Assembly (NCBI GenBank): GCA_914767715.1
Contig: OU612069.1
Coordinates: 10,229,387-10,293,386 of the forward strand
DNA length: 64,000 bases
Direction: 5' to 3'
Source of the DNA: Membranipora membranacea
Taxonomy: Eukaryota; Bryozoa; Gymnolaemata; Cheilostomatida; Membraniporidae
Part shown: positions 23,967-59,800 of the stretch, in pieces
Numbering within the stretch: the stretch's first letter is position 1
Layout of the letters: each line of letters starts with the position of its first letter
Made by a program: the position numbers and the translations under genes
The notes under the pieces: generated by a model
Seen by the model: the letters and a program-made list of their open reading frames with translations, nothing else
Told to the model about the DNA's origin: nothing
Databases searched by the model: none

Positions 23967-24022
23967 CTGTGACCAATGAACTTCCTCAAGAGGGAGAGGA
24001 AGAGGGAGTTCATTGCTGTGAC
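23967..24022. mobile_element. Palindromic micro-element, CAATGAAC type, 7-bp target duplication
   Basis: A 42-bp element at 23974-24015 (ends CAATGAACTTCCTC and GGGAGTTCATTG) is flanked on both sides by CTGTGAC. Confidence 0.8.
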
Positions 24023-24149
24023 TGTCGACAGACACACTCACAGACAGTCTGAGTCATAGTAAATAAATATATAGGTAGAATAGTGTATGTATGTATGTAT
24101 GATGATTATATGTATACTATGTATGTTACATTGTTATGTATATAAAATT

Positions 24150-24400
24150 GTTATTATTTATGACTTACTTGAATTATGATGCTGAATGTCTCGTGACACA
24201 TAGCGGCTCCCATAACAGCTTCCCAGTTGCTTTCCACTTCTCCCTATCTTTCGCTATATCTGCTGCCTCATTCCAGGTCTTCACACCAACTGTCTTCAAA
24301 TGCTTCATAACCACTCTCCTCCAAATTTCTTTCGGTCTTCCAGGCAGTCTCTTTCCTTCCGGAGCCCAGCGGAGACTTACAGCCATGCTCGAATCCTTTC
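24150..24400 (-). mobile_element. LINE C-terminal fragment
   Basis: A 70-codon - strand frame (PGRPKEIWRRVVMKHLKTVG ... WNEAADIAKDREKWK) has the GRPK/W-R C-terminal signature common at the end of non-LTR polyproteins. It is a different lineage from the adjacent RT remnants at 24.6-25.9 kb. Confidence 0.65.
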
Positions 24401-24624
24401 TCCTTAAAGTGTGCCCCAGATATCGCCATCTTTATATATCGCCATATTATTTATATCAATCAAATACCATGATACTCTATGTCAGGAGAGGAGCATAATT
24501 TTAAGCATGTCCTTGTCTTCTGGTATACTATACTTACTTTGTACCTTGATTTGTACCTTGATGAGTCTAGTTTCCAGCGCCAGCGTATGCTGTGACTTGA
24601 GAAACTGTTTTTCTCGTATGTCGT

Positions 24625-25900
24625 TTAACATCTCCGATCAGGAACAATTTTGATAATTGAACAGCTTTTGAGGGTTATACACGCGGGGGGGGGGGGGACA
24701 AGAAGTGGGCTCCCAGTGGGTAGGGCATTCCAATCCTTGGCAGTACGGATGAAAAACGATCTGGCTGTTTGGATGTAGTTGTTGATGACGCCTTTGCTGG
24801 AGTGATGGTATTGACTGAAGACTCTGATATGTCTATCACTTCGTCTGTGTGAGAGGGGCTGGAGCGAGAGTTTCATGAGCAATCTGGTTGTGCTTGTTTT
24901 CCTGTCGGTGCGCCATATACCGCAGATGAACCGGGCTGCTCTTCTCTGCACAGCTTTGTGTCGGTTGGTAGCAGAGTCAGCTGCCGAGTCCCAGACTGCG
25001 GAGGCATGTTCTAGGGATGGCCGGACCAGTTGCTTGTACGCTATGTTCTTGATTGTCTCGCAGCCTGTGAGTACATTTCTATGGATGAATCCGAGTGTGG
25101 AGTTTCCCTCAGCTGTGATTGTCAATGTGGCGATTCCAGCTGGTCTTAGGGCCAAAAGTAACTCCTAGATATTTGATGTGCTGTGCTTTCGGGATTTCAG
25201 TGCCATGCAGGTATAGTTTCTTGTTGGTTGGTTGGCGTTTTCTAGTGAACACAATGTGTTGGCACTTGGAGGGGTGGAACTCCATGTCCCATTGATGTTC
25301 CCAGCGTTTAAGTTTGGTGAGATCTTCCTGGGAAAAAAGGCGTACTGATGATTTAAGGTTGTCGGGAGGTCATTGTTGTAGAATAAAAACATCGCTGGTC
25401 CGATGACAGACCCTTGTGGTACACCTGTTACTGCAGCTTCTGGGGAGCTTTCACCGTTGATCACAACATTTTTTCTACGCCCTCTGAGTAGGTTGCCGAT
25501 CCAAGACACGAGTTGGTAGTTGACGCGTTATGATGCGAGTTTTTGAAGCAGCTTGGTGTGGTTGACTTTATCGAAAGCTTAACTAAAGTCTAAAACACAC
25601 GCTTCTGTCTCCTCGCATTTGTCGAGTTTGTTGGTTATATCGCTTATCAGCTCAATCAGTTGACTTTCACAGTCATGGTCTCTGCGAAACCCATGCTGGT
25701 TAGGATGGAAGATGTTGTTGTCCTCTGTGAATGTAATCAGCTGGCTGGTAAGGATGTGTTCCCTTATCTTACTGCATACTACAGGTAAGGCTTACAGGTC
25801 GATAATTTGCCGCTGTGGTCTTCTCGCCCTTCTTGTAGATGATGATCATCAACCAGACCCCTAACAAACCGTTTGTTGGGGAAGGGGTGGTTGATCATGG
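24625..25900 (-). mobile_element. Broken non-LTR retrotransposon (CR1/Jockey-like RT, frameshifted)
   Basis: Two - strand frames, 25509-25165 and 25155-24625, carry an RT segment (VTGVPQGSVIGPAMFLFYNN) and the downstream C-terminal helices (LVRPSLEHASAVWDSA, AVQRRAARFICG, AKDWNALP). Further RT remnants extend to about 25.9 kb in other frames (DHDCESQLIELISDI type text on the - strand). Frames change several times and the YADD region is lost. A poly-G run lies near 24683. 5'-truncated and dead. Confidence 0.8.
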
Positions 25901-26177
25901 ACATTGGCAAATTATACATGCTTATAACTCCAGATGCCTATGGTCAGGAGGCTTTGCTCCTTAATTAATTATAATACGTAGAATATATTACATATAATTA
26001 GTACTTAATTAAGAATATATTTAAATTTCTAGTGTATTTGTGAGTGTAACTTGTTACTTCTAGTCCATGGCTTTATTGCATACCCCTACCATTCCCTACC
26101 CCATGGTCCCCCAGTGGCTGGCTAGGTCCCATACAATTGGTAAGCCACCTAAACCCGTTGATGACATCAGCATGAAA

Positions 26178-26268
26178 GATAGGATAATAGGACTACTTCA
26201 TTTCCTGACTTCCCACCCACACAAAGCTCGAAGTCAGGAAATGCAGTACTAGTCCTTTGGATAGGATA
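26178..26268. mobile_element. Candidate 73-bp foldback with 9-bp flanking repeat
   Basis: The stem CATTTCCTGACTTC / GAAGTCAGGAAATG, with outer AGGACTA / TAGTCCT, spans 26187-26259. GATAGGATA occurs immediately on each side (26178 and 26260). It lies upstream of the SREBP start codon. Confidence 0.5.
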
Positions 26269-29700: not shown

Positions 29701-32700
29701 ATAAATCATCCTGTCAGCATAACTCCTAAAACTACTAACCCAGCAACTAGAGGTGTGTAACAAACAAATATAACCAGTTTATTTTTACCTCTTATCTTGT
29801 ACAATGTATAGCTATATAATATATATCTTCTCATGTGAATTTCGGCAGCCCATTAAAGGAAAAAAATTGATTGCTTCATGGGCAACACAGTGGGAACACA
29901 ATACTAGGTGACAACGAACACCTTATTAAATTTTACAAGTAAGAAATAGCTCGGCGCACAACAACAATTCTACACAATTAGTGCTTTAGTTTTGGAGATT
30001 TTAATTGGCTTGGGATTTTGGGGATCTTCTCTGGTAAGGATTCAGGTTATGAAGCTTGATGTTTGTTGGTTAACTTGGTGAGTTTTTGTTTACCAGACAT
30101 ATCGCAGTATGTTACGTGAAATCCGATCTCTATCTCAATTACAGCCGCCCTCATGACTCCTACCACAGTCAGACAAGTGCAAGTCAAACAACCAGCCAAT
30201 AATCTGCCAGCTGTTCGTGTGATCGCCCCCTCTACTGCAGCCACATCACCCATATCCACCCCCACAGTGGTGGCTTCTATAGTAGCTACCGCCCCTCGGC
30301 ATACTATTGTGACCGCGTCATCCCCTGTTGATGGAGCAGCTATGACATATTCAGTCGATGGTAATAACAAATTACCCATCTCTAAACTGCGGGGTCAGTG
30401 CAAACCTAAAGAACGCAAGTCTTCTCACAATGTCATTGAAAAGAGGTATAGAACAAGTTATTGCAATGTACATATCATTGAGTTTTATTCGCATTGACAT
30501 CGGAAAGACAAATCCAAGTGATTGCAAACATTATTTTCACAAGTTCGTGTCAGTGATTCCAAGTTGAGAAGAACAAGATATTCTAAACAATTTATAAGCT
30601 TTTGCTCCCTCTGTAATGTAATGCATTGTATTAAGATACATGTAGTTGATATCTTATTTCAGATATCGTATGAGCATCAATGATAAGATACTGGAACTGA
30701 AGGATTTGGTGATGGGTAGAGAAGCAAAGCTGAACAAGTCTGCAGTGCTTAAGAAAGCTATTGAGTCAGTGACGCATCTAAGACAAGCTAATGCTAGACT
30801 CACTCAACAAAACCTTGTCCTCAAGATGGCTCTGACAGAGATCGGCAAAAACCCTGATAAGGTGGGAATAATACGCTGCAGCCTTTCTACTTTAATGGTC
30901 TTAGTTCTCAGAAGGCTCATTTCTAGATTTGTTAATAAATGATAATAATGATTTGATAACTAGATTCCTGTGAATATAAGTTCTCTATCTTAACAGTAGG
31001 CTGATATATATTACATTATTCAAGTACCTACATTGTTTGAATTTTTAGATATTAGCATCTTGTGAAGCTTCCACATTGGGTGTTCAGCCTCTAACCCCCT
31101 CTTCAGACGGCTCATCTTATAGTCCTGAGACTATGTTGCCGGAGTCCCCGCAATCTTCAAGTGATGAGGGAATGCACGGAGGTGGGGGATATTCCCCTAA
31201 CTCTGCCTATAGCACAGGTCACTCAGGCATGGTGGACGGCAGTAGAATCATACTCTGCATGTTCATGTTCAGCATTCTTCTCTTCAACCCGTTCAGGTAT
31301 AAAACTAAACTTAACTCTATTGATGTCAGAACTGTTTGTTAGGGTGTTACAGTTTGTTCAATTAGTGTATAGTTTATAAGACCTTTGCCTCTTGAGCTGA
31401 CTGTACATGAATACTTGGACCTGTTTTGGTATTATAATGTAATCTATAACCCAACTTAACTCAAGCATGTATCACATTAGCTTGTCTTGACAAACTCAGT
31501 ACAGTGGACAAAGCTAGTCAAGCCAGACTAGTATTTCCTATGGCTTAGGAGGTTAATAACGCTCACCATATCTGTGATCTAGTGATGATCCTTAACCATA
31601 CGGGAGATTTTTGACCAACATTCCATTATTTTGTTACAGCTCTATGTTTGATGATAGCGGTGCAGCACTAGGCAGCCTAGAGACAGGAGGGTCAAGCAGG
31701 ACACTAAAGGGTTTCACAGATAGTATATCTGATTCTCTTGGACTGTGGAGCTGGCTCATCCCCTCGGTACAGTTTATTATGATCATAGTTAAGAGCAACA
31801 AGTGCAGCTGGATACTGCATACATTAGATCAATCATGTGTGCATTGTGAAAAAAATCATATCTTTCACCGGACTTACATTTTGCATAACAGACAACTCCT
31901 GGTTGAAGTAGTGTACTTACAATTTTATTTCACTCTCAACTAACAGGCGCTGACGTGGATTATAAACTTAATACTTCTGGCGTTGGTTCTAGTGAAGGTT
32001 TTAGTATATGGAGAACCTGTTACTGCCTCACAGAGTAAAGAGTCTACTAGATTTTGGAGGCATATGAACCAAGCTGATACTGATCTTGAAAAAGGGTCAG
32101 TTAGATTTTTTCTTGGTGTTCCGTATAAATAGTCAAATGTGTTTCTTGGAAAATTATGCTTGTTGAACCTTTGATTGGGTATCAGTCACAAACAATGGTT
32201 GTGGTGCTATTTTAGAAATAGTTCACTGATGTATATGGCTTTGGTAATGCAAATGATTGTAGCCATAGCTAATTATTATTAGTGGTGTAGCTTTTTCCCC
32301 GGCGGCACTGAAACTTTAACCATAAGTTGACGATGGTGATGTTTGTGATACCGTACAGGTGTCACTCATCAGCTGCTGTACAGCTTAAGGAGGCGTTACA
32401 GACACTAGGCAGGCCTTATCCTACTACAAGATTAGAGCTAGTCACTAGTCTAACATGGCAGAGTCTCAGGCAGGTCAGTACTAACTACAAACATAACATC
32501 ACAGAGTAAGGATAAGCAGAGGGGACACTTCAATGATCGTTATAGTGCCTGCGGTTTTTATCCACTGGGGGAAATTCATCAATCTGGCCACCTGCCAATT
32601 TCAGAATATATATAAGTTACAGTGGAGTTTTGTCATGCAGACATAGCCACCTTTGATAGGTCATAATTCATTCTGTATTTATCCTAAAGACTGATTTCTA

Positions 32701-35700
32701 ACTTTTCTGAAATGTCCAATCTTCGAGCTATACACCATATTATTGTCATTTTTTGCTAGGATACATAGGCTATGAGTAATCCAGGTTTTTAAAATGAGTT
32801 TTATCATATAGATTTACATAGGGCTTAGGTCAATGCACGGACATTTCCTAATTTTGATGACCAGCCGTCTATCAATTGTCACACGTAAATCTATATGACA
32901 AAACTCATTTTAAAAACCTGGATTACTCTTAGCCTATGAATCCTAGCAAAAAATGATAATAATATGGTGTATAGCTTGAAGCTTGGACATTCCAGCAAAG
33001 TTGGAAATCAGTCTTTAGGATAAATACAGAATGAATTATGGCCCATCAAAGGTAGGGATGTCTGCAAGAAAAATGCCATTATAACATATAGAGATAATGA
33101 GTTTTTGGCATCCAGCTGTGCACAAATTTCCCCCAGTGAATCAAAAACCGCAGGCACTATAACGATCATTGAAGTGTCCCCTCTGCTTATCCTTACTCTG
33201 TGATAACATCATACCAACATTGTCTTTTCTACTTGTACGGCATTCTGCAGATGCAGTAGTTTGAATATAATTTTTGATAGCCCTGTACAAAGAAGAATGA
33301 ACGATCCAAGCTTGTTTTTATTTCCATATGTGGCATAGACAACTTAATGAAGTAGAGTTTTTTCTACACACACAGTTATTACACAGGACATATATAGCTC
33401 GTATATTCGGTAGCACTGCTGCTAAGAGGAATAGAGATGTAGTTAAATCATCACATCACGCTGCTTTAGCCTATTACAGGTTACTACAGCTAAGTCTCAC
33501 TGGAAAGGTTTGTCTTATCTTTTATTTCTCAATTATTGAACTATCTGTCCCATTACTAGTGAAACAAGTAATCAAAACCAAACCAAACAATCACCTCCAA
33601 TATTCAGATAAAATGTTAAAATCGTTTCAAGATATTGTTACAACTAATTTACTAATTTCTAACAGGGATCTAGTGATTCAGATCGTTGATATGTGCCTAC
33701 TTCTTTACGACCATTTGATATATGTGATATATAAGATATACGTGTACTTAGGTGGAGAGCACAGGTTGGCAGCAGTTGAATCTTGCTCTCTGCTCACTGA
33801 ACTTAGCTGAGGCATCAACTAGTATAATGTCTAGAGATATACTGGCTCAGATATACGCTACTGCTGCTGTGACTGTCATGCATACACTTGTAGATAATCT
33901 TCACTTCATCGCTGTAAGTTATCCGGCTGACATCGAAGTTAGTTTTCTGCACCATTATAGTGACCACGTATTATTGTAGTACAATCTTATACTTAAGTTT
34001 CTTGTTAAGAGGTGTCCACTTGCATTGAGCATTAACTGTCAGATCAATCTGGTATTGTGTCACTGTAGACTTAATAATAATAACAGTAATGATAATATTA
34101 ATAATACTATAAAGTCTATGGTTGTGACCGATCATTTGTACACCATATCATACTTGTATTTCTCCTGTGGTACATAGTTGACTTGAATGCCCTGTGAGAA
34201 AGCTGAGGGATTTTATATTTCCTATTGTAAATGGTCTTTGTTTACTGATTATGTGTACATTTGTAGAGATTTTTGTTGAGCCGATGCAGAAAGCAGTGTT
34301 TGAGACATGATAGAGACAACATCCCTGCACATCTCAAATGGCTTTGTGAACCGGCTGGTCACAGGTGAGTCCTCACACACAGTAGTTAATATATAAACTT
34401 CATCATGTACCGTCAACGCTCCCACCATCATAGCAAGTAACATTTTTTTAACCATTTTACTAAGCATTGAATGATGGGTTCAATTTATTGTAAAGTTTAC
34501 GTATTGCCAAATTAAATAAGATAGTGATATAGGACAGCGAATAGCTCTCAGGTATTCGCTTTATTCCCTGCAATTGGACTTGCTATAATACTTTTGCTAA
34601 TAATTATTTTATCTCATCTCCACAATCACTGTTTGTGTTCTCATGGTTGCATAATATCCCAGTTGGCACCTTAACTTTGTGCTTGACTGACATCAGGCAG
34701 GAAAACAAACACTTATACCAATGAACTAAACCTCAGTTTAGTTCATTGCTTATACATGTGTCAGATTGCTCCTTAAAGTAGCTTAGGCTCTAAAACAGTA
34801 TTTTGTCAGCTGATTAAATCAGAACTGATAATGAGCCCTTCGTATCACTGCCAAAGCTGATAAGGTTTATAACTCAAGAAATTACCAGAGAAATTTTAAG
34901 ACGGGCTGTCTGTCTTCTGGTTTCTAAAGTCTTTTAAAATTGTTGCTTCTTCCAGATTACAGATTATGGACCCAGACGAAGCCCGGTAGTCTGAAGCTGT
35001 CTAGTCTTAGCTTTTTGAAGAATAAAAATATCATTTCTTTTTGGGTTGTGATTATTGCAGGTATCTGGTTGATTTGACATGGTACGATGATTTGAAATGC
35101 TTAGAGCAGGGATTCAGTACAAACAAGCATCCATACGATCCTCTATCAACCCTCATGCAGTGCTACAGACAGCATCAACTAGACAGAGCTCTCTATGAGG
35201 TCATCACACCTAAACCTGATAGTAACATGTAAGTGTCAGTCTTATCATTCATGTCATCATAGAATACTTTCATAAACCCATGAAATTTCCTACCCTATAG
35301 AATAATGTCTGTTTATCTTAGTTGGTCTATAAAAAAAAGAACTCTGTCTGCTAGTTAAATTTTCATATTTTGAATGAAGGTTTTCAGTCTCACAGTTGTT
35401 TCTTTAAATTTTGCCAACACGAAAATGTTACTCTTCACATATTGTAAGAATGGTGATAGTAGATTGAGCTGATGAGACCAGTGTATGTCTAATCATTGTA
35501 AGTAAATTAAAACCGTGACTTGTAGTGAGGCGGCTCTGAATCACCTAGAGGACATAGAATGTACCAATCCACAAGAGAAGACAACAGATAAACCCTATGA
35601 TCTGGTGGAAAGGGTGGATGATGTGGCTCACTGGTGGTCTGCTATGGTCAGTATGAGCCACATAACCTCCATAAGCCTAAAGATGTTGATCTTCTCATAT

Positions 35701-39524: not shown

Positions 39525-39745
39525 GAGGTGGCTCAGTTGGTTAGAGCGCCGGACTTCAACACGCAAGTTTTGAAGGTAGTGGGTTCGAATCCCACTGCAG
39601 TCCATCTTCTACTGGGGATTGGTTGGTCCCTCAGGTGTGCTCCGACCTGCCTGCAAACAGAGAGCAAATTGGCGCAGATATTGTGGCCTCGCCATGAAGG
39701 CAATAATATTTCGCCGCTCATGCCTTGGGATGGGCGAGTGATAAG
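39525..39745 (+). repeat. tRNA-derived SINE, family A (best copy)
   Basis: Complete tRNA-like head: box A TGGCTCAGTTGG, then GGTTCGAATCC as box B near 39582, followed by a tail (GCTCCGACCTGCCTGCAAAC) shared with the copies at 0.7 and 43.8 kb. The head lacks a convincing acceptor stem, so I do not call a functional tRNA gene. Confidence 0.8.
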
Positions 39746-39957: not shown

Positions 39958-39988
39958 TATCAAGCAATGAACAGTTCATTGTATCAAG
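39958..39988. mobile_element. 17-bp palindromic micro-element with 7-bp target duplication
   Basis: CAATGAACAGTTCATTG (39965-39981) is a perfect palindrome with no spacer beyond its centre, flanked on both sides by TATCAAG. It is the smallest member of the CAATGAAC type in the window. Confidence 0.8.
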
Positions 39989-40186: not shown

Positions 40187-43100
40187 ATGCAGGGCCTTCA
40201 GTCTCATCAGCTATGGGTGGATAAACACAGACCAAATAAGCTAAAGGATATGACTTACCATCAGTCACAAGCAAAACAACTCATAGCGCTGGTATGTCAA
40301 ATATTGATTATGTATTGACAACAACAAGTCAAGTGTCAATAATATTAATTGTATAATAAAATAAATAAATGTCTCAATTGCAGGCTTCTAAATTAATTAT
40401 TAATTAATAATAACCTATCTATATTAATATAGGCCTACAGTAAGACTAGCAATATCACAGATAGATAGTAACCTCCAAATATGAATGATAGGCATGTTGT
40501 CACAACGAACATCAGGACCTATTGTTGTTTTCTTGGCATCTGGACTGGGAATCTGGTCCTGGAGCAAGCAGCAGCATGTATACTTAAATTATTATTATAT
40601 ATATATATAGTGTCCATGTTCAACCTTGATCAACCACGTCATTACAGTCCACACACACCGTCTGTAGTGTAACTAAAGATGTTGTCATACATGACAAGTT
40701 GGTAGACCAAGAAATCAGGAGGTCTCGGCGTACGAACTCCCGACCAAAAGTACCACTCTGCGCGTCCCGCAATGGGGGGGGGGGTTGTAATTCGGCCCTT
40801 GTTGTCATTTATTTTAAGCCAAAACTAGAGCGTTCATATTATGAAATGCGTAATTTTACCTGATTTTACAAATTATATTGTTGCACTTTATCCGAAAGAG
40901 GAGAGATAGTATGTTAACAGGCAATTATATCTAGGTATATGTGCTGTTGGGGTAGGAAAACATAGTTTTTCTTGCAACGAGAAGCTTAAAAAATCTTCTG
41001 GGTGAAGGAAGCTGAAAAAAGGGAGGAAAAAGGGAGATAGGGAGGAGGTAGAAAATACCCCTAAAAACTGGGAGCCTCCCTATCAAAAAGGGAGACTTGT
41101 CAGGTATAGATGTTGTATGTGAAGTGGTCAGCTCAAGGTCTAGACTAGAGCTAGAGAATTTTGGTGGGGTTACCCACCACTGACTCTATTGAATTGTTGG
41201 GGGTTGGTGGGCACGGGATGTATAAATAAATGTGTTGAGGTACCATGACTTGGAGAGTTCCCCCCACAAGAAACTGTTGGAATTAGTGCGTACCCTCGCA
41301 TACCCACAGACTTTGACCACACTGTCCCGTCTGCTTTTAGTTTTGCGAGTGTGCAACAATTACTGCAGTTACTGCTACCCCCTTGGTTTTACAGCTTGAC
41401 TCTGCTATAGAAAATAGATCCACAAACATTGTTGTGGGAGAATGATCAAACTGTATGTTAGCCTCTATCTAGACAAGCTAGAGTAGATTAATGTCACTGA
41501 GTTGGCAGGTGATGATGTGATGTGTAAACCAGCAGAAACAAGTTAACGATTCTGTTGTTTTATCCCTGTTGTGTCTCATAATTATTATGGAGAGATAGGT
41601 ACTTGTATGCCTTCCTCCAATCAGCGGGGGGGGGGGGGAGGGCTGATGGTATAATCATTGGTAGTAGCTGAGTAGGCCTAGTAGGTTGCGAGCATTTACT
41701 CTCAAAGTTGCTTATTCTGTACTATCAAGTGATAGCTATACACCTATATTACCTAGCTGAACCATAGGCGTAATGATACGCAGACAACACATTTCTGCTG
41801 CAGGTGTTACTGGGAGTCTTAGGATCATTTTACTAAAGATTGCTGGAATTTTGATCTTCATGGACTGAGGTTTGTGGCCTTTACTTGGCATGGCTATGTC
41901 ACCTATTTGATTTGTCCAGCAGGACCTAGGATGTGGGGTGTCGCGTTACCGGGCCCCAGATAAAGGTCAGACTCTTACCCACTATCTAATCACTGAACTC
42001 GACAGAGATGACAATAATTAAGTGCGAATATAACATCACTCTCTTTGTTTTCATTATTTAGAAAGAAGGGTGTGATTTTCCCCACCTACTGTTTTATGGA
42101 CCAAGCGGTGCAGGAAAAAAGACGAGAGTGATGGCGTTTCTACGTGAGTTGTATGGGGACTCATCTATAGATAGACTCAGGTTCGAGCACGTAGAAATGA
42201 AAGCTCCTTCTGGTGCTAAAGTGGAGCTGAGAGCTGTGGCTACTAACTATCACATTGATGTCACTCCCAGGTAGATACTGATCTTATATACTAATTATAG
42301 TACATTCATCTACATTCGTTTTGGCATCGTTTGACTAATCTGTCTAATATGTCTAGCTAAAGACATTCTGTTACCGAGGTGATTTAATCATAAGCGTTAC
42401 TGTCACTCCTGGCTTGACAAAAATCGCAATTAACTTCCACTGTCACATGAAATAGAAATCCCTCTTATTTTATAAGGCTGGTCAATATGAAGTGTAGAGT
42501 ATACTAATTATTTGTACTTATGATGGCAGTGACTGTGGAATACATGACAGAGTAGTCATACAAGAAGTGATTAAGAATCTCGCATCTACAGCCAGGCTTG
42601 GATCAGATAACAGCAGCCGTTCCAAGTTTAAAGGTTAGTCCAAACCTGACCACTATCTATAGATGGCTGTGTAAAGCTAGTCACATAGAAAGGATATATC
42701 CTGTGAGCTAATGGGTTCTTAGGAATGTGCTATACATAAAATAAATTGTACCAGTATCCAAAATTTACATGAAGATTTGAGTGTTTACCAGGTCTTTTCA
42801 GGTCCTGAGTAAATTATTTCCCTAGATGGGTAGACCTTGCGGACATACTCATTAAAGTTATTGCAAAGGAATCAGGTTTCTGGTATCTATTATAGAATAC
42901 TGCTGGTCCAAAATTTCAGTAATGTTACAGCCGCCGATACCTTGCAAACATTTGACTTGTCAATAAGCTTGTCTGAGTTTTTAAAGGTTGTTAAATAACG
43001 TTAAAGCTGCCAGAATTTAAGCTAGATCCAATGACTGACACAAAGTTATATGATGAAATTTCTCCACGAATAGCCATACTGTGTATTTTTAGACTAATCC

Positions 43101-46100
43101 ATGAATTCATATCGATACTCATGTCTTCTTGAAATTGTTCAATTCGATACCTTGAGGCCTTGAAAATCTCCTTTTCTAATAATACTACCTTGGCAATGCA
43201 CCTGTCATGAAACACGTTCTGATATATATCAGGGTGAAGTGATTCCTCATCAGATGAGCTTTCATATGGTATATAGAAAATCTGAAAATTTATACTTGAT
43301 AATAAATTATTTGGTCTATACATAAAAGGCAAGCAACATGTACATTGAAAGAAAATTGATTATTGATAATCCATACAAAGTTGAGAGCTTCTGTGTATGG
43401 GATTTTATATTGTCTATCAATGATGAAAAAATTTCCACAAGCGACGTTTTGCGCTTTTTGGGACTCCTGAGACCAAAAAGTTGCTGCTTGACAAGGCTTC
43501 CCATTACCAACTAAGCATACCTACACTAGTGACTTTTATATATTTTTAGTGGTTGTGATGAATGAAGTGGATAGATTAACTAAGGACGCTCAGCATGCAC
43601 TTAGGAGAACGATGGAAAAATATGTGGCCTCTTGTAGATTAATCCTCATATGTACATCTACTAGTAAAGTTATACCTGCTATACGTAGCCGATGTCTCGC
43701 TATCAAAGTTTCCTCTCCCACCGCTAATGAGGTGGGTTTGTTTTAATTTTAGTTTACAGTATGCAAGCATGCGTTGGAAGTCTCGGGTTGGAATCCCCCG
43801 GCAGTCTACTGACTACTGGGCTCCGACCTGCCTGCAAACTGACAGCAACTTGGCACCGAATATGGCGATTTTAACCCACATATCCTCATAGCCATAAGTC
43901 AATTTTCTTTAATTCTTCCGATCAATTATATGGCATATCCAATGATATATTCATGGATTAGAGAACATATCTGACCCTCCACAAGCACATGGCAATTTGT
44001 GTATGATTAAAGGAATGCATTCATTCTATTTGATTGGTTCCAAAGTTCAAAAATGCTACAGCCAACCACTTGTAAAATAGCTTGTCTGAATTTAGATGGT
44101 TGTTGCTGGGTCGTCAATCAATGCACGAGGTGAAAGCTGCGGATTTACAGATTCGTTTAATTGCTGACACTAAGTCACGTACTGCTGGAACTTCATTTCA
44201 AATTGCCACAATCCATGAATTCGTATCAGTGGGTATCAGTGGGCTTATCTTTTTACAACTTTTTCTACTTACACTGCCAACAACGAGTTAACATTTTTCT
44301 TTTAAAGTGTTTGTAAAGGAACAGGGTTCTTGGTATCATTTTTGAGCTTGAAATGAGATTAAGACAACTATCACACATGCATTTGCATGAAAAATAAGTC
44401 TTCAGGGTTACTTGGTCTGGTAGGTTTGGGGGTTATAAGTTAACACTATTGAGTTGCCTACTCATGCACAGCCCAACTTGTCCAGGCGATTTGTAATGAG
44501 CCTATTATGGGGGAAATACAGTAATATTAGTGACTATTGTGGTCAGATAACAACATTTGCAAATACATGACAAAGTCACTCACAAGTCTGTCGATGACAT
44601 AAAAGTTCAAATTTAATGAGTTGAGACCGCTAATCAAAACAACCTTCATTTCTGTTATGAGCCCATGTTGAAGAAGAGATTAGAAGAACCCATGTACCAA
44701 AGATTATAAATACTGACTGTACATTACAATCAATGACTATGACCCATTCCCTGTCCACAGCTTTTCAAGCGAGTGATTTTCATTTCATACCGCTGCGCTT
44801 GTTTGCTCTGTTTAAATAAGATTACACTGGAGCAATGGATTCTTCCTTGCTTATTTCAGATTTACCTAAAAATGGTCCATACAATGCTTTATGGTTAGTA
44901 CCAAATCTTGCGATGATATCTAACACTAGCCCCCAAAATAAGATCCATACTGATGAAATAACTCAAAAACTCGACAAAATAATTTCCTATGTGACTGATG
45001 TGTGCTTTGACATAGGTTCTCATATGGCATGCTGCACTCAGTCAGTAATATTGATAGTCCATGTTTAGATGTGCTGAGTATCTGTGATGCACAGATGGAC
45101 AAGATCTGATGTAAAATAATATAGAAAGTTTCTCAAGGTATTCCACTGCTTACACGATTATCAATACTCCTCTCTTTAGGAGGCAGTCAAATTCATTTAC
45201 ATTTTTCATCACCCTGAAGTCCGAAATAACTAGATGACAATTTTATTTACTTTAATTTACTTTGTGACTTGTAAATTCCAGTTTTTGATGTAAACAACAA
45301 AGTTTACCCGAGAAAATCTTGTGAGTCCAAACATCAGAATATTTGCAAAAATTGTTGTAAAGATTCTCAAAACTTCAAATCACTCAGTATTAATCATCGC
45401 ATGCTTTGGATTTTAACACATCCTAATGCCTGAAATGTCGAGATTTAAAAACAAATTATTTTAGATTTTTGTGCAAATTAGAAAAACATCCAGTCTACAT
45501 GTGTAAATTTTGTATCTTCCATTGAAATTCTATTGAAAGCCACTAATCATAAAGCATAACGGCTGAAGACAGAGTTTGATTGGAATGTCATATCTTAGTA
45601 TTTATAATCTTCAATACAATCCATGTAGCCACAATCTCATTTATTCATCAAATAAATATAAACAAAACCTTGAAATACTTTAGCCATGTATTGATCTGCC
45701 TTCATATTGCCAATTTCTATCTCAGCAGTAACCATGGTTAACAGAAAATGTTGTATCTGTCAAAGCACTGTGGGTTATTTCAAGTGGCCGAAATCATACA
45801 GATTTAAACTTAGTGGTGTGACCAATTAACTAAGTTCATTGGTGTGACTACCTCAGGGACATTTTCCCTATGATAATCACATGGACTCGACATCGATTTG
45901 CTACAATTGCCTCCTGAATGATATTCAATCTCACTCACTCACTGGATCTGTTAATCTCCCTATAATTTTCACTCTCGCTGTCGGATGAGCTAGAGTTGTA
46001 ATTTTTGCCGTGCTTGATTTCGATCGTTTCGATTATGAAATTTTATACACTATCCCATTTTACCAGCTAAGCCACATAACATGGGACAGATAAACTTTGC

Positions 46101-48831
46101 ATTGTATTCACTCATTCATTCAATAGATAAATTCTGTGTGGTTTAATATTGTACGCAGGGAATATCAAAACCACTGTGTCATAACAAAAAGTCTTATTTA
46201 CGAGATACTGTATATTCCCATTATAATCTAAGGTACTAAAAAGGTACTATTTTCTACAAGTGATCACAACTCCAAAGGAGAAAAATAGTACCTTTTTAGT
46301 ACCTTCTCAACCCAACTTTGAGTGAAAATAAATCATAACTGGGCCACAGGCTGCTTTTGGACATAGCATAATGTTCTAAACTAGACTGAGAGCTCTAGAA
46401 TGATACCAAAAACCTGTTTCCTTTACAATCACTTTAATGAATTAATATATATCTATCTGTCAATCCCAATGACACAAGGTATGACACTGTGTTGCGATTA
46501 CTCTTGTTGTACCAAACTACTTTCTACTATGAGGTTGAAATGAGTTATTCCTTTAATAATGCTTCTTGATTCATTCAACTGACAACATGTGGTGATCACA
46601 AAGTTTAATACATGTTACCTCGTCTGTCATGTTTTTATCTCACGCTGGCCGTTGATATTTTAATTGCTTCTATTTTTTATTGTCCCTCCATATATTATCT
46701 AACCTAACATATTGGCCCGCATCACTGATAATTGAGTTACATGAAAACTAAGAAACCAACAAAATCCTGGACTGTGCCCTCAAGGACTCCTTGGTTGAGG
46801 GCAAACCAATGATAGCATCAATGCTATTACACAATGCAATGTTGTAACGTCACCCATAATTAAGTGCCTCACCCATATCAAGGAGTACAAGTTACAGTGT
46901 CCTGTCAGATTCAGCTAGATTAGTACCACATATCGTAGTATCTTGTTATTGATAGCGTGTGCTCCCTCATTACTACAGTAATATCTCTGAACCACCCATA
47001 ACTGAATTGTTAATCAGAATAGAGTGAGCGGCTATATTTGGATTTGGCAGTGTCATGCAAAAACGAGCTGATGGTGATCAGGATATTCGTTATGAGGCCA
47101 ATATATTGGTAAAAGGCAAAGTTGATTGGGTAATATTACATGTTATGTTGAATGAACTGTTAGTTAGCTTGGCACAATGGCAACTAAGTGGACCGTAATA
47201 TAATATAAATCAGTTTTGATTGAAGGTGAAGTACTCACTGATGGAGGTCGCCAAATCAGAAGGTGTTACATTACCTGAACAGCTAGCTGATAGAATAGTA
47301 GAGAAATCTGATAGAAATATGAGAAGGGCTATGCTTATGTTACAAGCTTGCCATGTCACTCAGTGAGTTATACAAATGTTTTAGCTGCAGTATGCATGTC
47401 TTGGGGTTTATCAACAAAGTTTTCATCTCCCGATCTGCAGCCTTTGATTCAACGCAACGCAGTTACCCAAATTGAAGGAAGAAACACAACCGAAACAAAA
47501 TTGAACCATTACTGTTTCCATGATTAAATAACTCCTGCAATCGACGTAAGATTGATTCATTGGAATACTAGAAGTGTTGAACACTGTAATTTACGGATTT
47601 TCTTACTATTGTACACTGTGCTAGTTATGTTTGCGTGTCCCTTCTGATGATTGTAATGTTGCAAAGAATAAATAATAATAACCAAAATCATACTATCATA
47701 TTAGGCCTATAAGTGGGATATAAATATGATTCATTTACAGGAATCCCCTAGTTGAGAATCAGATTGTACCAGATTTACCCTGGCAGCAGTATTTATATGA
47801 TACAGCTAAGATTATTCTAATGGAGTACAGCAGCGAAAGGTTAGAACTATAATTACTAATATTGTTATCCTTTTGATTATTACTTGCATTCTAAATATTA
47901 GTATTATTTGAAGGTTTACGTTCTTCACATTTTGGTATATCTGTTGATTGCCTGGTTTCCACTATATTTATTGTAGATTGTTGAAGGTTAGAGAGAGATT
48001 ATATGAGTTACAGACTCATCTCATACCAAGCTCACTGGTTTTTACTGTAAGTAGCTCACCTTGTCCGTATATGAATGACTAGCTAATGCTATGTCAGATA
48101 CAGGATGCACATTTGATGCTAACAAAGATTCTGCTACGTCTTTAGGGTAGGAAAATTTCAAGATTTGGCTAGATTACTTTTTTTTGGTTGAATGCTTGAA
48201 TCTCAGCTCGTTACCACATTGATGGGAATTGTCCACATCAAATGCAGAATAAGTTATGTCCGTCAATGGCTGGCCGGCTGTGGAAACGAACATTATATCT
48301 GCCTACACATTTTTTTAAATGTTCACAATAAGTAGATTTGTGGCTGTTGATCTTACTTATGAGTCTGTAAAACTGTAACTTTATTACTCTGTCCTTTCTC
48401 TGTCCTTACAGTGATTATATATAGGAAAGCTGTGATTGTGGTTGGTATCATCGTATAGCTTGTCAAGACAGACTAGGTTAGAAGCTGTCATGTTTCTTTA
48501 GGTTATACCATAGACCTACTAATATTATTAGTAGGTCTATGGGTTATACAGTTTAATGTATTATGTAGATGATTTTCTTACAAATAAAGACTCTTATTTT
48601 GTGCTATATTTACAGACTCTTGTCAATGAGTTGGTGAAATCATTACCGAGCTGTCTGAAAGCTGAGGCTATAAAGTTAGCAGCTAACTGTGAGCACAGAC
48701 TACAGCTAGGATCTAAGGATATATTCCATCTGGAGGCATTCATAGTACAGTTTATGTCTCTACATCAACAGTATAATGAGAGAGGCATTATAGAATCACT
48801 GGAATTCAGCTCTGATATGGATATGGATTAG
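40187..48831 (+). CDS. RFC3: Replication factor C subunit 3 (38-kDa clamp-loader subunit), complete
   Basis: Eight exons join to 373 codons plus stop: 40187-40291, 42062-42270, 42530-42633, 43550-43731, 47226-47362, 47741-47839, 47977-48046, 48616-48831. Motifs: [11 protein letters not shown] at the N-terminus, Walker [10 protein letters not shown], Walker B region [24 protein letters not shown], sensor-1 [13 protein letters not shown] with the SRC motif, then the collar domain and a C-terminal block [12 protein letters not shown]. Length is close to that of animal RFC3. The RFC complex uses ATP to load PCNA on primer-template DNA. Introns 1 (1.8 kb) and 4 (3.5 kb) are long and full of repeats; the others are short. 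Confidence 0.95.
42850..44350. repeat. Dispersed repeat R1 copies around RFC3 exon 4
   Basis: GCAAAGGAATCAGGTTTCTGG (42.87 kb) and GTAAAGGAACAGGGTTCTTGG (44.31 kb) are related, as are AATCCATGAATTC segments at 43.09 and 44.21 kb and CTTGTCTGA segments at 42.97 and 44.08 kb. An inverted relative of the GGAAACAGG box lies near 46.41 kb. No protein is recognised. Confidence 0.45.
43757..43885 (+). repeat. tRNA-derived SINE, family A (5'-truncated)
   Basis: Retains a box B-like GGGTTGGAATCCC and the family tail GCTCCGACCTGCCTGCAAAC. It lies in RFC3 intron 4. Confidence 0.65.
45816..45848. mobile_element. 19-bp palindromic micro-element with 7-bp target duplication
   Basis: CAATTAACTAAGTTCATTG (45823-45841) is flanked on both sides by GTGTGAC. 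One base departs from the CAATGAAC end. It lies in RFC3 intron 4. Confidence 0.75.
46231..46306. repeat. Inverted repeat hairpin
   Basis: AAGGTACTAAAAAGGTACTA is paired with TAGTACCTTTTTAGTACCTT around a loop of about 30 bases. Each arm also holds an internal GGTACTA duplication. No flanking target duplication was found. Confidence 0.7.
48501..48549. mobile_element. 33-bp palindromic micro-element, CATA type, 8-bp target duplication
   Basis: Element at 48509-48541 (CATAGACCTACTAAT ... ATTAGTAGGTCTATG), flanked on both sides by GGTTATAC. It lies in the last RFC3 intron, about 75 bp upstream of the final exon. Confidence 0.8.
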
Positions 48832-49330: not shown

Positions 49331-49450
49331 TGAAGCATGTGTCCCTGCAGTACCAGCGACAGGTGAAGCATGTGTCCCTGCAGTACCAGCGACAGGTGAA
49401 GCATGTGTCCCTGCAGTACCATCGACAGGTGAGGCATGTGTCCCTGCATT
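49331..49450 (+). repeat. 33-bp tandem repeat
   Basis: GTGAAGCATGTGTCCCTGCA followed by GTACCAGCGACAG occurs three times with a partial fourth. It forms the outer end of the left arm of a large inverted repeat; the right arm (about 50735) holds only about one copy. Confidence 0.85.
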
Positions 49451-50740
49451 TAAATCAATCATGATGTAAGGTGAAGCTTGTGTGGGCATTATATCACAGA
49501 GTAAGGATAAGCAGAGGGGACACTTCAATGATCGTTATAGTGCCTGCGGTTTTTATCCACTGGGGGAAATTCATCAATCTGGCCACCTGCCAATTTCAGA
49601 ATATATATAAGTTACAGTGGAGTTTTGTCATGCAGACATAGCCACCTTTGATAGGTCATAATTCATTCTGTATTTATCCTAAAGACTGATTTCTAACTTT
49701 TCTGAAATGTCCAATCTTCGAGCTATACACCATATTATTGTCATTTTTTGCTAGGATACATAGGCTATGAGTAATCCAGGTTTTTAAAATGAGTTTTATC
49801 ATATAGATTTACATAGGGCTTAGGTCAATGCACGGACATTTCCTAATTTTGATGACCAGCTGTTTATCAATTGTCACATGTAAATCTATATGACAAAACT
49901 CATTTCAAAAACCTGGACTACTCTTAGCCTATGAATCCTAGCAAAAAATGACAATAATATGGTGTATAGCTTGAAGCTTGGACATTCCAGCAAAGTTGGA
50001 AATCAGTCTTTAGGATAAATACAGAATGAATTATGGCCCATCAATGGTAGGGATGTCTGCAAGAAAAATGCCATTATAACATATAGAGATAATGAGTTTT
50101 TGGTATCCAGCTGTGCACAATTTTCCCCCAGTGAATCAAAAACCGCAGGCACTATAACGATCATTGAAGTGTCCCCTCTGCTTATCCTTACTCTGTGATT
50201 ATATACACAGTTGTATCTAGAAAAACAGCCAAAGAATTAATAGTGAACCTAGACAGGACACTATATGGAGCATTGGAAAGTGCTAAGCAATGATGTTATC
50301 ATTGAATTACTGTCCACAATCCAGGCTATTTGTTGATAACTGGATCAATTTTTGTTGGATTTTGAGTCTGAAATTTACAATAGATTTAGCAGCTACTCGT
50401 GAACAGTTTGATACTAAGTTGAGACAAAAACTCTTTTTTGAAGAAGAAGAAATAACATCAAGTTGATAACAAGATGCTGCTGATTTTAAAGCAATTTTCA
50501 AACTCAAAATTCGATCAAGATTGATCTAGTTATGAACAAAAAACCTGGACAAAAAACAGTAAATCAATGATAGCATCATTGCTTCTACACCTTCCAATGC
50601 TCCATATAAGCTCACTATTAATTCTTTGGCTGTCTTTCTAGATACAACTGTGTATATAATGCCCACACAAGCTTCACCTTACATTATGATTGATTTAAAT
50701 GCAGGGACACATGCTTCACCTGTCGCTGGTACTGCAATAC
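49420..50740. repeat. Large imperfect inverted repeat with a nested foldback
   Basis: The left arm (about 49420-49494 continuing at 50198-50405) and the right arm (about 50440-50740) are inverted copies. Paired landmarks are GGTGAAGCTTGTGTGGGC / GCCCACACAAGCTTCACC, ACAGTTGTATCTAGAAA and GCCAAAGAATTAATAGTGA. The 703-bp foldback interrupts only the left arm. The arms encode the start of the capsid-like frame described at 50626. Confidence 0.85.
49488..50204. mobile_element. 703-bp CACAGAG foldback element with 7-bp target duplication (copy 2)
   Basis: Element at 49495-50197, flanked by ATTATAT on both sides. The uninterrupted site, one ATTATAT, is preserved inverted in the right arm at 50654-50660. 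Length is identical to copy 1. Confidence 0.94.
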
Positions 50741-52094: not shown

Positions 52095-53663
52095 TTAAAA
52101 CAGGTTTGCATTTATGATGCGGACTAAAACACGATAAAACGAGTCCGTTCCCTTTGACGACCTGATCTCAGGAGCACGCAGGCGTCCTGACGGCATTGTC
52201 TCGATGATGCTATGAATAAAATGAGTCTCATCTCGATAGATCGTCAGCACATACTTCTGGCATCTTAGTTTGATCGCTTCGTCTAGACTGAGTTGGATAT
52301 TAGCACCGTGTTTTGTGGCTTCATTCAAAATCGATTGCATAGCATTTTGCTGAATACTATACATGTGGGGATAATATAGAAAAATAGCAAACATCAATTT
52401 CGACTCAATAAAAGTTCTATAAAGCTGCGTGACTAGTTTTGTATCTGCACCCAGAGCATGAAAACCCCTCACAACATATAATCTCTGTTTAGCTTTAGAA
52501 ATGACCATATCTGCATGCTCACTAAATCTTAATGAGTTATCAATCAATATGCCGAGATACCTGACAGAGCTGGAAAGCTCGATAGGCGTGTCGTCTAACA
52601 CCAGCTGCGGGACATCAGGAGCAACTCGGGCGGAAGAGAAAACCATCACATGTGTTTTACCTGCGTTCAATACCAGGTCGTCAGCAGCGCAGACACTGGC
52701 AATGCGGCTGACTTCATCAAAGTATAGCATGTTGTCGGTAGTAGGGTCACCAATAAAGCCCAGCAGCACTGTATCGTCAGCATACTTTATCACGGTAGCT
52801 TGGTCATATGAAGCCCGGATACTATCGGTGTAGAGGATAAAGAGAACAGGACTCAGCACTGTCCCTTGTGGCATGCCGGTATTCGTGATTAATAAGTCTG
52901 AGATGGCATCAGGGCTGGTGCGGGTGTACTGCAGGCGGTTGGTAAGGAAACTCAAAACCCAGTTCATGATAGAGACGTCGAGGTGAGCCATTCTTGAGAT
53001 TAGGGTACTAACGTTGATGGTGTTGAAAGCGGAGCTGAAATCTAAGAACAGCGCTCTGACGTAGTTGGTTGGTCTGATGTCGATGAAGCGAGTTATTGAC
53101 GTAGGTAGATACATCAGGGCATCTTGCGACGATCTTTTGGTCTGATACGCAAACTGCAGCGGGTCGATGTTGGTGTTGGAGATTATATATGGTTTTATCA
53201 GCTTCTCAAGCACCTTACATAGATGGCAGGTGATGGCAATGGGTCGGTAGTCTTTGTTGCACTTTGGGTGTGGCACTTTCGGAACAGGCTTGATGACAGC
53301 AGTGCGCCACAACTTTGGAGTTGTCCCCTCTTCGATGGCACATTTATAGAAAACACAGACAGTACCTGCTAGTTGATCTGTACAGTATTTCAACACCTTT
53401 GTTATGATCTTATCCGGACCGGGACCTTTACGTGTGTCTAGCTCCTGGAGCTCAGTTCTAACTTGCTCAGAAGTAATTTTCCCGAACGGGACACAGTTCT
53501 TTTGGTGTTGCAATCCACCGGCCACCGGAGCTGTTTGTGAGGTGTCTTTCTCAAATCTGGCATAGAACGAGTTTAATTCATTCGGGTCAGTATCAACATT
53601 TTGACGGTTTGCGGTCTTAGTAGGAATACCTGCGAGTTTCTTAATGTCGTCCCAGCCATACAC
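52095..53663 (-). mobile_element. Non-LTR retrotransposon reverse transcriptase ORF (CR1/L2/Rex-like)
   Basis: A continuous 522-codon - strand frame encodes a full RT domain: RKGPGPDKI, DYRPIAITCHLCKVLEKLI, ALFLDFSSAFNTIN, TGMPQGTVLSPVLFILY, the catalytic box KYADDTVLLG, and the thumb VRYLGILIDNSLRFSEHA. There is no endonuclease domain upstream, so the copy is 5'-truncated. The open frame suggests recent insertion. Clade assignment is by general resemblance. It lies downstream of the WDPCP remnants, in the same orientation. Confidence 0.9.
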
Positions 53664-56382: not shown

Positions 56383-56884
56383 CTGTGGAAAACGAATAAA
56401 ATATCTCAGACAGAATGAGGCATTAATTGACGATACACAATCTCAAACTGAACAGAGATTCCTAAGAGGATCAGGTTGATCACAATGTTATTATTGACAT
56501 GATCTCACTGGGAATTCCAAAAAGGTGCATTGTGGGATGCTCATAAGTATCCTACTATGTCCAACTACAAATGCCAGTCAACAAGGGCAGAAAAGCTTCA
56601 TATATTATGAGTGTCAACACATGGAGATTTTTCTAGAAACATTATGACTGTCAACATTAGCAAATGCAGTCATATACTGTTAGACCACCCATGCAAAATA
56701 GCTGCATACATTATGACTGTCAATGTTGGACCACACATAAAGACTTTTCAACAAACAAAACAACTGTCAACATTAGGAGGATTGTCAACTACTAAGAGTA
56801 AGACTACACATGCAGGGTGGCTGCATAAGTGATAGCTGTCAGCGTTAGACCACACCTCCTTCCCATTAAGGATCTTACTATATA

Positions 56885-57224: not shown

Positions 57225-57246
57225 GGAGTTAAAGACTTTAACTCCT
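57225..57246. repeat. Palindrome abutting the MITE
   Basis: AGGAGTTAAAG/CTTTAACTCCT forms a 23-bp near-perfect palindrome starting 3 bp outside the MITE. It resembles the CAAGGAGT micro-elements but has no matching 7-bp flanks. Confidence 0.55.
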
Positions 57247-57249
57247 CGC

Positions 57250-58590
57250 TAATGCTATATATATCTGTCTGAGTAGGTAATTTCTACCATATATGACCAT
57301 TAATATGATTATATATTATAAATCAGTGTATGGCGACTCTAGTAATGTATGTGTGCCAATGTATCGATCAAGTAGCAGGGCTACTAAATCCATTGCTTTG
57401 ATTTGTGGACAAAATTGGGATAAACTCGACACAAATGCATTTAGGTGATTTGAGATAATATTAATAAAGCGTTCAATATGATATTGCATTTCTGACCAAA
57501 ATATATACAAACAAAATCTAACAATTGATGACAAAGATCTTCAAAATGCGCCACATCTCGATCTATCCACTATTCTCATTTCTAATTAATACCACAACAT
57601 GTGTAAAATACAGAGCAAGCTACCATAATGAGATGCACGCAGCTACGCAGACCATCTACCCTTGGTTCAAGTAGTGGGAGTTTTTTCTGAGCGTTTTCCT
57701 TCAGAGAAAGTCTAATAAAGAAGACTACTTCTAGTTCAGATTTATCTGATGAGCAGAGCGCTATGAAAGAGTTTTCAATCACAGCTACGAAATTATACAG
57801 ATTTCAGTCTTTTGAGCAAGTGTGACAATTATTGAGGTTATCAGATATGCATATAAATAAATACTTAAATAATAATAATATTTCAGTTTTATATGAAATT
57901 TTTCAACAATGGCAGCAATTATATTGAGTAGAAATGAGCACGACATTTCAATGTTATCGGACCATGGTTTGATAGAGGGATGAAAATAACACAGTACCAA
58001 TATACATATCTAATAATATATATACAACATTATAAAGCAACTTTGAACAACCTCACCTTGAACTAATGAAATTACGGAGTATCAAGCCAAGCAACCAGAT
58101 TCTAACTGTAAGTCAATTTGGTCATGTTACACTTTGAGAGTTATTCTCTTTCCAAAAATGGGTATGGTTGGAGACTAAATGCTTGGTCATTGGTAAATAA
58201 CAAAAACTGCAGTATGAATACTGAGCACAAACCAAACTGTTAGTTATTGGTAATTTAGTATTGCTAAATTCAAGACTGCTTAATTTAATTCGGAAAGTTG
58301 AGGATTGTCCATTTCACAGAATTAAATATCAGACATTTTGCTTTTGTGAATTTCCTGAGCTTATGCTATAAAGATTGAAGTAAATATTCAGTTTGCAAAA
58401 CGATAAAATGTTCCTCCTTCATCCACAATATACCGTACCAAATACGTAATCAAGCCGGACATGTTACCATCATTATTAACATCATTATTAACATCATCAC
58501 AGTTTGATCTTTTAATCATACCCTCTACACACAATCTGTAAGATAAGGCAGCAGAGCTTACCATATCTATGATCTATAAGGGCATATTAT
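57250..58590. other. AT-rich stretch with no recognised gene
   Basis: Several short - strand frames are open but none shows WDPCP N-terminal similarity or convincing splice context. Upstream WDPCP exons would be expected here or beyond. Confidence 0.35.
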
Positions 58591-58596
58591 ATGGGG

Positions 58597-58690
58597 GGAT
58601 GGTTAGACGGCGCGCTATCGGTTAGCATGCTGTCTAGTGCTGCAGGAGTGGTGGGTACAACTCCCACTGGGGGACCTGTCATCATGGATT
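58597..58690 (+). repeat. Degenerate tRNA-derived SINE, family C head
   Basis: GGTTAGACGGCGCGCTATCG and GTGGGTACAACTCCCACTGG align with the box A and box B regions of the 16.6 kb family, in the opposite orientation. Confidence 0.55.
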
Positions 58691-59099
58691 GTTCCTGTCC
58701 AGCATCCATATTTCCTTTGGCCATGCCAACTATTTTGGTGCAATTATAATCATTATGAATAGTGAATTAGTGAAAAGCTAGCATGCTAACCGATTGCTAT
58801 TAATAAATTTTATTAATTATCATATTATGGTCACTTAAATTTTTCAATATAAGAAGCGAGACCAACAATGTAATTACTATATAGTGTGATGAATTATTTT
58901 CTGAATCTTGGATATTAGAGCACAGACATAGATAATGTAATGTAAGGTTCTCGCTCTTCCAGCCTGTGAACAGCATAACTACAACGTATGAGGCTCAAAG
59001 GCCAGGTTAAAAGTTAGTAAAATTAAAAAGCATAACACAGTACTACATCATTAAACAGCTGAACCTTGTCACATTATTTTAGGAAAAAATGAGTTATTT

Positions 59100-59800
59100 A
59101 GTTGTAAGAAAACTCTGTATCTTTAACCAAATAACAGGTTTTGCCAATGCAGCACTCACCTGAAGAAATTGGAGAGTTGAATATGAGGCACAAATTTCAC
59201 TCCTTCTAGAGTAAGACTCAAGTATGTCCAAGCTTTACCATATACATGTAATACATTCAATATTTATATATCTATATATATCTCTATATTGGTGGAAAAC
59301 AAACAAACAAAATTAATTAAACAACACATCTCAATCGGAATGGGGAATTTATTGACAGTCCAGCAACACAACCTGAAATTGAGATTCCACAGAGGATCAA
59401 GCTGATCATAAATTATTGTTATTGACTTGATCTTACTGGAAATTCCAAAAAAGGTGCATTGTGGGATACTCATAAGTATCCTAGCTAGTATAATCTAATT
59501 ACAAATGCCAGTCAACAGGAGCAGAATAGCTTCACAGTGTAAGCAATGAACTATTTGGTGTAGTTCATTGGTGTAAGGATATATCCTTACTCTGTGATAG
59601 CTTCATACATTATGACTGTCAATGTTGGACCACACATGAAGGCTTTGCAACAAACAACACAACTGTCAATATTAGGAGGATGGTCAACTCCCTTTAGACC
59701 ACCCATACACAATAGCTGGATAACTTATAACTGTCAGTGTTAGACCACGCCTCTTTCCCATTCAGGATCTTACCGAAAAAAGATATCGGAGATGGTAATT
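59100..59800 (-). pseudogene. Partial tandem duplicate of the WDPCP locus
   Basis: 59140-59255 copies the exon at 54936-54851 plus flanks; 59390-59780 copies the intron at 56450-56880. Everything between them in the parent (three exons) is missing. The duplicate exon keeps an open frame, but its 3' splice acceptor AG has become AT (at about 59246-59247), so it cannot be spliced as in the parent. Confidence 0.78.
59526..59603. mobile_element. Nested pair of palindromic micro-elements, each with its own 7-bp target duplication
   Basis: Outer: 59533-59596, flanked by ATAGCTT on both sides. Inner: a 27-bp CAATGAAC-type element at 59544-59570, flanked by GTGTAAG on both sides. Removing the inner element and one GTGTAAG leaves a 30-bp outer palindrome with ends CACAGTGTAAGGATA and TATCCTTACTCTGTG, matching the ends of the 703-bp foldbacks. 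The parental locus near 56591 (AAAAGCTTCA) has no insertion. Confidence 0.9.

Follow-up and report, generated by a model that had tools for sequence, protein, structure and literature searches.

Short Palindromes Between Direct Repeats

The 64,000 nucleotides of Membranipora membranacea DNA analysed here (contig OU612069.1, positions 10,229,387 to 10,293,386; hereafter the window) contain 11 short palindromes of 17–56 bp with CA...TG ends and exact flanking repeats of 7 or 8 bp, together with two 703-bp elements whose ends reappear in one of the palindromes (Table 1). The palindromes are probably (with a rough probability of 0.84) excision scars left by a P-like cut and joined by the host, rather than mobile micro-transposons.

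The window was scanned for palindromes of up to 120 bp that end in CA...TG, have arms pairing perfectly over 4 bp or more and lie between exact repeats of 7–9 bp. Eighteen palindromes passed, and 11 were left after removal of the seven that lie inside a satellite at 62.0–62.45 kb. They comprise five units with the ends CAATGAAC and GTTCATTG, four units with 8-bp repeats (at 17400, 48509, 59807, and 63245), the unit at 17838 (7 bp), and the outer unit at 59533–59596, within which one of the first five is nested. Ten runs of the same scan on resampled sequence gave 0, 1, 0, 0, 0, 1, 1, 0, 0, and 1 hits. The five CAATGAAC units had been picked out earlier from the letters of the window (the sequence-only reading) as a family of palindromes, each between different exact 7-bp direct repeats. 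Their positions and repeats are as described, and the family is real but incomplete, being part of the 11-unit set in which several families carry 7- or 8-bp duplications. The same reading held that the five share 8-base ends and little else; the common ends are present, but the arms share more than eight bases with their kin and follow a few longer ends that occur elsewhere in the genome.

Longer CA...TG candidates of a loose scan were chance-like and were excluded before counting. The interval 49456–50692, tried as a duplicated unit, was dropped; what looked like its duplication, ATTTAAAT, is palindromic and forms part of a longer inverted repeat. Two units were left out of the 11 as they have no CA...TG ends. 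One of them, 41036–41084 (49 bp), has inverted ends of 10 bp (GATAGGGAGG), lies within an exact duplication of 9 bp (AAAAAGGGA) and is perhaps a tiny Mutator-like derivative; the other, 37979–38039, is an imperfect palindrome of 61 bp (CTTGTCAC...GTGACAAG) flanked by the 6-bp repeat ACTAGC. The satellite (62056–62435) is a tandem array of an 18-bp unit and gave false palindrome matches.

Table 1. Putative excision footprints and related elements in the window. Intervals include the flanking repeats; TSD, target site duplication.
Feature	Interval	Unit	TSD	Remarks
Putative CATAAAC-family footprint, 25 bp	17392..17432	17400-17424	GATACTAC (8 bp)	
Putative CAAGGAGT-family footprint, 21 bp	17831..17865	17838-17858	GTTTGAT	termini recur in L179 and L184
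Putative CAATGAAC-family footprint, 42 bp	23967..24022	23974-24015	CTGTGAC	ends share 9 bases; 24-bp centre, purine-rich
Non-autonomous CACAGAG element, full-length, 703 bp	32493..33209	32500-33202	ATAACAT	foldback-like; outer 60 bp a perfect inverted repeat
Putative CAATGAAC-family footprint, 30 bp	34712..34755	34719-34748	CTTATAC	matches type-A parent end over 16 + 13 nt
Putative CAATGAAC-family footprint, 17 bp	39958..39988	39965-39981	TATCAAG	matches parent end over 8 + 9 nt
Candidate decayed CACAGAG footprint	42675..42712	~42682-42705		flanking repeat 6/7 bases; BLAST match, by eye; outside the 11
Putative CAATGAAC-family footprint, 19 bp, one base altered	45816..45848	45823-45841	GTGTGAC	
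Putative CATAGAC-family footprint, 33 bp (16+1+16)	48501..48549	48509-48541	GGTTATAC (8 bp)	
Second CACAGAG element, 703 bp	49488..50204	49495-50197	ATTATAT	inside longer inverted repeat
Diverged paralogue of 59.4–59.8 kb without insert	56468..56880			BLAST: 83% at 56468-56600, 92% at 56698-56790
Putative outer CACAGAG-family footprint, 64 bp as it stands	59526..59603	59533-59596	ATAGCTT	
Putative CAATGAAC-family footprint, 27 bp	59537..59577	59544-59570	GTGTAAG	nested within CACAGAG-family footprint
Putative CATTGAT footprint, 56 bp	59799..59870	59807-59862	TTTCTACC (8 bp)	ATATGA repeats in centre
Putative CATAAAC-family footprint, 32 bp (14+4+14)	63237..63284	63245-63276	GATTGTAT (8 bp)	

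Genome-Wide Occurrence and Controls

In the assembly (339 Mb in 18 contigs, window included), the pattern CAATGAAC(N0–30)GTTCATTG has 2008 matches, as opposed to 95 for the reversed control. Flanks were read at 43 of 50 listed matches on contig C1 (0–4.1 Mb), two of these sites overlapping each other (L152). An exact 7-bp duplication is present at 31 of the 43 sites and an 8-bp duplication at none; counting duplicated copies once leaves 28 of 40, three of the 43 being copies of another site plus its flanks. When left and right flanks are paired across sites with different palindromes, they agree in 2 of 1782 cases. Among at least 122 matches to the pattern listed from viral contigs (120 stretches), none has a flank match of 4–11 bp. 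The sequence-only reading had named flanking identity across the genome as its test; the sites read here agree with it, and its judgement that five of five is not coincidence is borne out by the resampled-sequence, reversed-pattern, mismatched-flank, and viral-contig controls, all of which reject chance.

For joint analysis, the CAATGAAC sites of C1, of a 200 kb sample and of the window were combined and copied scars counted once, which gave 46 sites with 38 distinct sequences and mostly different centers. Scars copied with their flanks were seen twice within stretch L128 and in the pairs L142/L146 and L143/L147, which belong to stretches about 390 kb apart.

The 200 kb sample consists of 20 stretches of 10 kb, evenly spaced on contig C1, in which arms of at least 6 were required. 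Ten palindromes in it carry 7- or 8-bp duplications, a count that includes one chance-like unit (L180:3204–3216, duplication ATTTTTTT), whereas three resamplings gave 0. Repeat lengths of 5, 6, 9, and 10 bp yielded 0, 0, 1, and 0 palindromes, respectively. Families of the window recur in the sample with unchanged duplication length (7 bp for CAATGAAC and CAAGGAGT, 8 bp for CATAAAC and CATAGAC), and the window is richer than average, with 11 units per 64 kb compared to 10 per 200 kb. The duplications also reveal a target preference: when 34 of them are read on both strands, T at position 2 and A at position 6 (T2/A6) occur in 55 of the 68 readings, and the first base is G or C in 48.

Longer Elements With the Same Ends

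One sampled element, L181:1557–2382, carries CAATGAAC-type ends and is referred to as the type-A parent. It spans 826 bp, has a perfect 30-bp inverted repeat, after which its ends stop matching, and lies within the 7-bp duplication GTGAAAT; its longest open stretch is at most 65 codons. Sites with at least 11 bases matching the end of this parent on one side were classed as type A, which applies to 26 of the 46 CAATGAAC sites. The 52 arms at these sites retain 8–17 parental bases, and none exceeds 17 although the parental repeat reaches 30. For each length from 8 through 17, the numbers of arms are 1, 3, 1, 1, 16, 4, 1, 18, 6, and 1; the overlapping L152 sites share an arm that enters these counts twice. 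Longer arms were detectable, since the search pattern admitted units of up to 46 bp, while later mutation would shorten the measured arm. Partnerless copies of the type-A end at L136:282 and L152:223, compared by eye, also follow the parent for exactly 17 bases before diverging. Two CATAAAC units of the 200 kb sample measure 34 bp.

The two 703-bp CACAGAG elements of the window are identical at 694 of 703 positions, and the first copy has a strong foldback structure. A third element of this family, 691 bp in length, has a 7-bp duplication. No relatives of the end of the 703-bp element were found in viral contigs. The second copy is surrounded by an inverted repeat (49412–50736) with 83-bp arms (96%), the left of which overlaps a 33-bp tandem repeat.

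The unit at 59533–59596 links these elements to the palindromes. Once the nested palindrome and one 7-bp copy are subtracted, 30 bp remain, corresponding to 15 + 15 bp of the ends of the 703-bp element with one mismatch. The site is read as having been entered and left by one family and subsequently entered and left by another. In its diverged paralogue, the candidate empty site is a single AAAGCTT at 56592–56598 (versus ATAGCTT), picked by eye.

Proposed Origin of the Palindromes

According to the proposed mechanism, a cut-and-paste element, belonging to the P superfamily or to another group with the same mode of cutting, would insert and duplicate 7 bp (families CAATGAAC, CAAGGAGT, CACAGAG, and CAGAGAC) or 8 bp (CATAAAC, CATAGAC, and CATTGAT) of its target. 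During excision, a transposase, presumably of the P type, would cut one strand at the end of the element and the opposite strand some 17 nt into the terminal inverted repeat, so that both chromosome ends would keep the target duplication and, as a 3′ overhang, roughly 17 nt of the transposon end. These overhangs would probably be joined end to end by the host through trimming, a short overlap or added bases. The product would be a palindrome no longer than about 2 × 17 nt plus filler, with a target duplication on either side. The joined product would be palindromic because the two element ends are inverted repeats of each other. Direct joining of overhangs of about 17 nt would also explain the small size of the units and remove the puzzle of how such short ends could be synapsed.

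The sequence-only reading had regarded the palindromes as DNA transposons reduced to their terminal repeats. They are indeed transposon ends with target site duplications; that the 17–42 bp units are themselves transposons is unsupported, given their differing centers, the existence of longer parents with the same ends and the stop of retained type-A ends at 17 nt. Its alternative, abortive or gap-repair products of longer elements, was nearly right as regards the abortive product, direct end joining providing a better fit than gap repair.

A precedent exists in Drosophila. The cut that P transposase makes in one strand lies 17 nt within the inverted repeat and creates 17-nt 3′ extensions, which are called unusual and distinguish P from other characterized cut-and-paste elements (PMC7776569). 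In Rad51-deficient flies, P ends are joined directly, and among the sequenced junctions are some made up of duplication, partial end, short overlap or filler, partial end, and duplication (PMC2895639, Table 1). These laboratory P{wa} junctions keep at most 17 nt per end, show trimming, short overlaps or 1–15 bp of filler and include single junctions that recur up to 14 times (PMC2895639). The end-joined junctions of Drosophila melanogaster thus have the same anatomy as the palindromes described here, although they derive from one locus in the laboratory with an 8-bp duplication, whereas the palindromes are natural, lie at many loci and belong to several families with 7 or 8 bp. The palindrome scan misses scars with most of one end lost, and P{wa} junctions of that kind would go unseen in it.

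Membership in the P superfamily in the strict sense is less certain than the origin of the palindromes as scars of a P-like cut. The duplication is 7 or 8 bp and fixed within a family, the target is palindromic, and the one type-A parent has a 30-bp inverted repeat; for type A, at most 17 nt of each end are retained, as read indirectly from scar sequences. In the P superfamily, duplications are 7 bp in 1360 and Galileo and 8 bp in P, and palindromic targets of its families include GTTNAAC, GTANTAC, and GTCCGGAC (PMC3276498; PMC4168063). The 7-bp duplications and GTNNNAC-type palindromic targets of 1360/Hoppel and Galileo are like those found here. P inverted repeats measure 27–31 bp in Anopheles (PMC1562414) and 31 bp in Drosophila (PMC7776569). 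P-derived miniature inverted-repeat transposable elements (MITEs) of Anopheles gambiae are non-autonomous and have P-type ends, P inverted repeats in that species being 27–31 bp as compared with 30 bp in the type-A parent, but they are larger units with 8-bp duplications and not scars, whereas CAATGAAC duplications are 7 bp (PMC1562414). The 60-bp perfect inverted repeat of the 703-bp elements is longer than that of P, as in Galileo with its long, foldback-like inverted repeats, a likeness of architecture. The Galileo inversion paper does not use the word “footprint” (PMC2775673).

Several observations weigh against the origin proposed here. Twelve of the 43 flank-read sites have no exact duplication (four differ at one base, eight at two or more). 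In one CACAGAG element of 628 bp (L181:4647–5274), the flanks do not form a direct duplication but are inverted, each showing AGATATGTC when read inward. The empty site lies in a diverged paralogue, and automatic alignment of the joined flanks, which contain internal repeats, placed the gap elsewhere. No P-type transposase, a protein marked by a THAP domain and an RNase H-like core with a GTP-binding insert, was found by Pfam among the 18 window and 10 sample open reading frame (ORF) stretches, which says little about the whole genome. One 26-bp sequence occupies 9 of the 46 CAATGAAC sites, more than free joining suggests, yet laboratory junctions recur as well. Locally copied filler is suggested in only one of seven cases when compared with shuffled filler; templated filler was accordingly not used as proof of polymerase theta. 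In the unit at 59544–59570, inspected by eye, the center TTTGGTG includes TTGGTG, which also spans the junction of right end and duplication. Finally, no parent was found for a second CAATGAAC end type, CAATGAACTCCC/CAATGAACTTCC, and 7 of 86 arms reach 18–19 nt when scored on provisional ends that were derived from these same scars. Such arms could reflect a cut slightly further in; they are not decisive, since filler can mimic an extension and the yardstick is circular. The 17-nt limit consequently applies to type A, where a parent is available, and may extend to the other end types.

Alternative Explanations

Interrupted gap repair, in which only a few bases are copied from the sister or homologue at either side before synthesis ceases, would produce very short internally deleted copies, and in wild-type flies P{wa} excision usually ends in incomplete synthesis (PMC2895639). 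It would likewise preserve the duplications and give variable centers. However, a spread of longer internal deletions would be expected, whereas the length scan of the window revealed no unit of 61–702 bp, the nested 64-bp unit at 59533, which escapes that scan, aside. The length gap describes the window only, as the 200 kb sample holds a 397-bp element. Together with the absence of type-A arms beyond 17 nt, this makes gap repair an unlikely source of the palindromes. Exact duplications at many sites would also be produced if the 17–56 bp palindromes were moved as such by a transposase acting in trans, an extreme case of MITE reduction, and the recurrent 26-bp sequence has exact, different duplications at eight of its nine sites. 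Units shorter than 34 bp are nevertheless too small to accommodate two staggered cuts of 17 nt, the 38 distinct sequences at 46 sites speak against a unit that moves intact, and longer elements with such ends exist (691–826 bp). P ends moreover need subterminal binding sites located about 100 bp or more inward (in part PMC7776569). Mobile micro-elements are thus very unlikely to account for the set, and it is similarly improbable that the 26-mer, CAATGAACTAAACCTTTAGTTCATTG, is itself a mobile micro-element, that is, a scar re-mobilized by transposase; if true, it would lie far below the size of any transposing unit known to this analysis. A MITE of uniform length and interior was rejected for the palindromes on the same diversity of sequences; the 703-bp pair does fit that description.

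Long palindromes are unstable, and the 703-bp CACAGAG element is strongly foldback. Deletion of the center of long foldback elements, by replication slippage or hairpin cleavage, would leave palindrome tips, but the inverted repeat of the type-A parent ends at 30 bp, so scars occur without long inverted repeats, and such deletion gives no reason for the 17-nt limit; this origin appears extremely unlikely. hAT elements have CA...TG ends, and their excision creates hairpins on the donor flanks without leaving an element end behind. A hAT origin was rejected for the described units, in which 8 nt or more of the element remain at either end; the scans called for element ends, so that hairpin-type scars of other elements would have escaped them. 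The 397-bp element of the sample (L180:2434–2830; ends CAGGGGCGTATATT/CAGTGGCGTATATT, 8-bp duplication GTCTGTAG) is presumably hAT-like. The hAT element hobo shares 8-bp duplications and a similar target, and target preference is therefore weakly diagnostic (PMC3276498). The Dada superfamily was considered for its duplication length (6–7 bp) and set aside. Many Dada elements target multicopy RNA genes (PMC8869645), and the 11 units of the window all lie clear of its two transfer RNA (tRNA) matches.

Significance

End-joined P excision scars are already known from fly experiments. In M. membranacea, natural scars seem to be fossilized at very many loci, with longer elements still present; a rough extrapolation from 10 per 200 kb on one contig, if typical, gives about 15,000 scars in the genome. 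If the proposed origin is true, the cut position of an uncharacterized transposase can be read from genome sequence alone, and the scars form a large, naturally produced collection of repaired breaks from a non-model organism. They also caution against annotating units of this kind as micro-MITEs. No genome-scale natural catalogue of such scars was found in the open-licence literature, represented mostly by titles and abstracts.

Other Features of the Window and Sample

An inverted-repeat element of 446 bp without an obvious duplication lies at 21775–22220 (65-bp arms, 97%). At 52095–53663, an ORF of 522 amino acids encodes a reverse transcriptase (PF00078) like those of long interspersed nuclear elements; its best full-length relatives are 53–55% identical and come from metagenome contigs. 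Two protein searches gave metagenome proteins as best matches, the named ones being distant reverse transcriptases of fish and sea cucumber. The two tRNA matches (16664–16741 and 39529–39595) are weak and may be short interspersed nuclear elements derived from tRNA; positions 702–785 resemble 39543–39626 at 80%. Further Pfam domains are DED and Death in the sampled stretch L184 and RTP1_C1 and HLH in the window.

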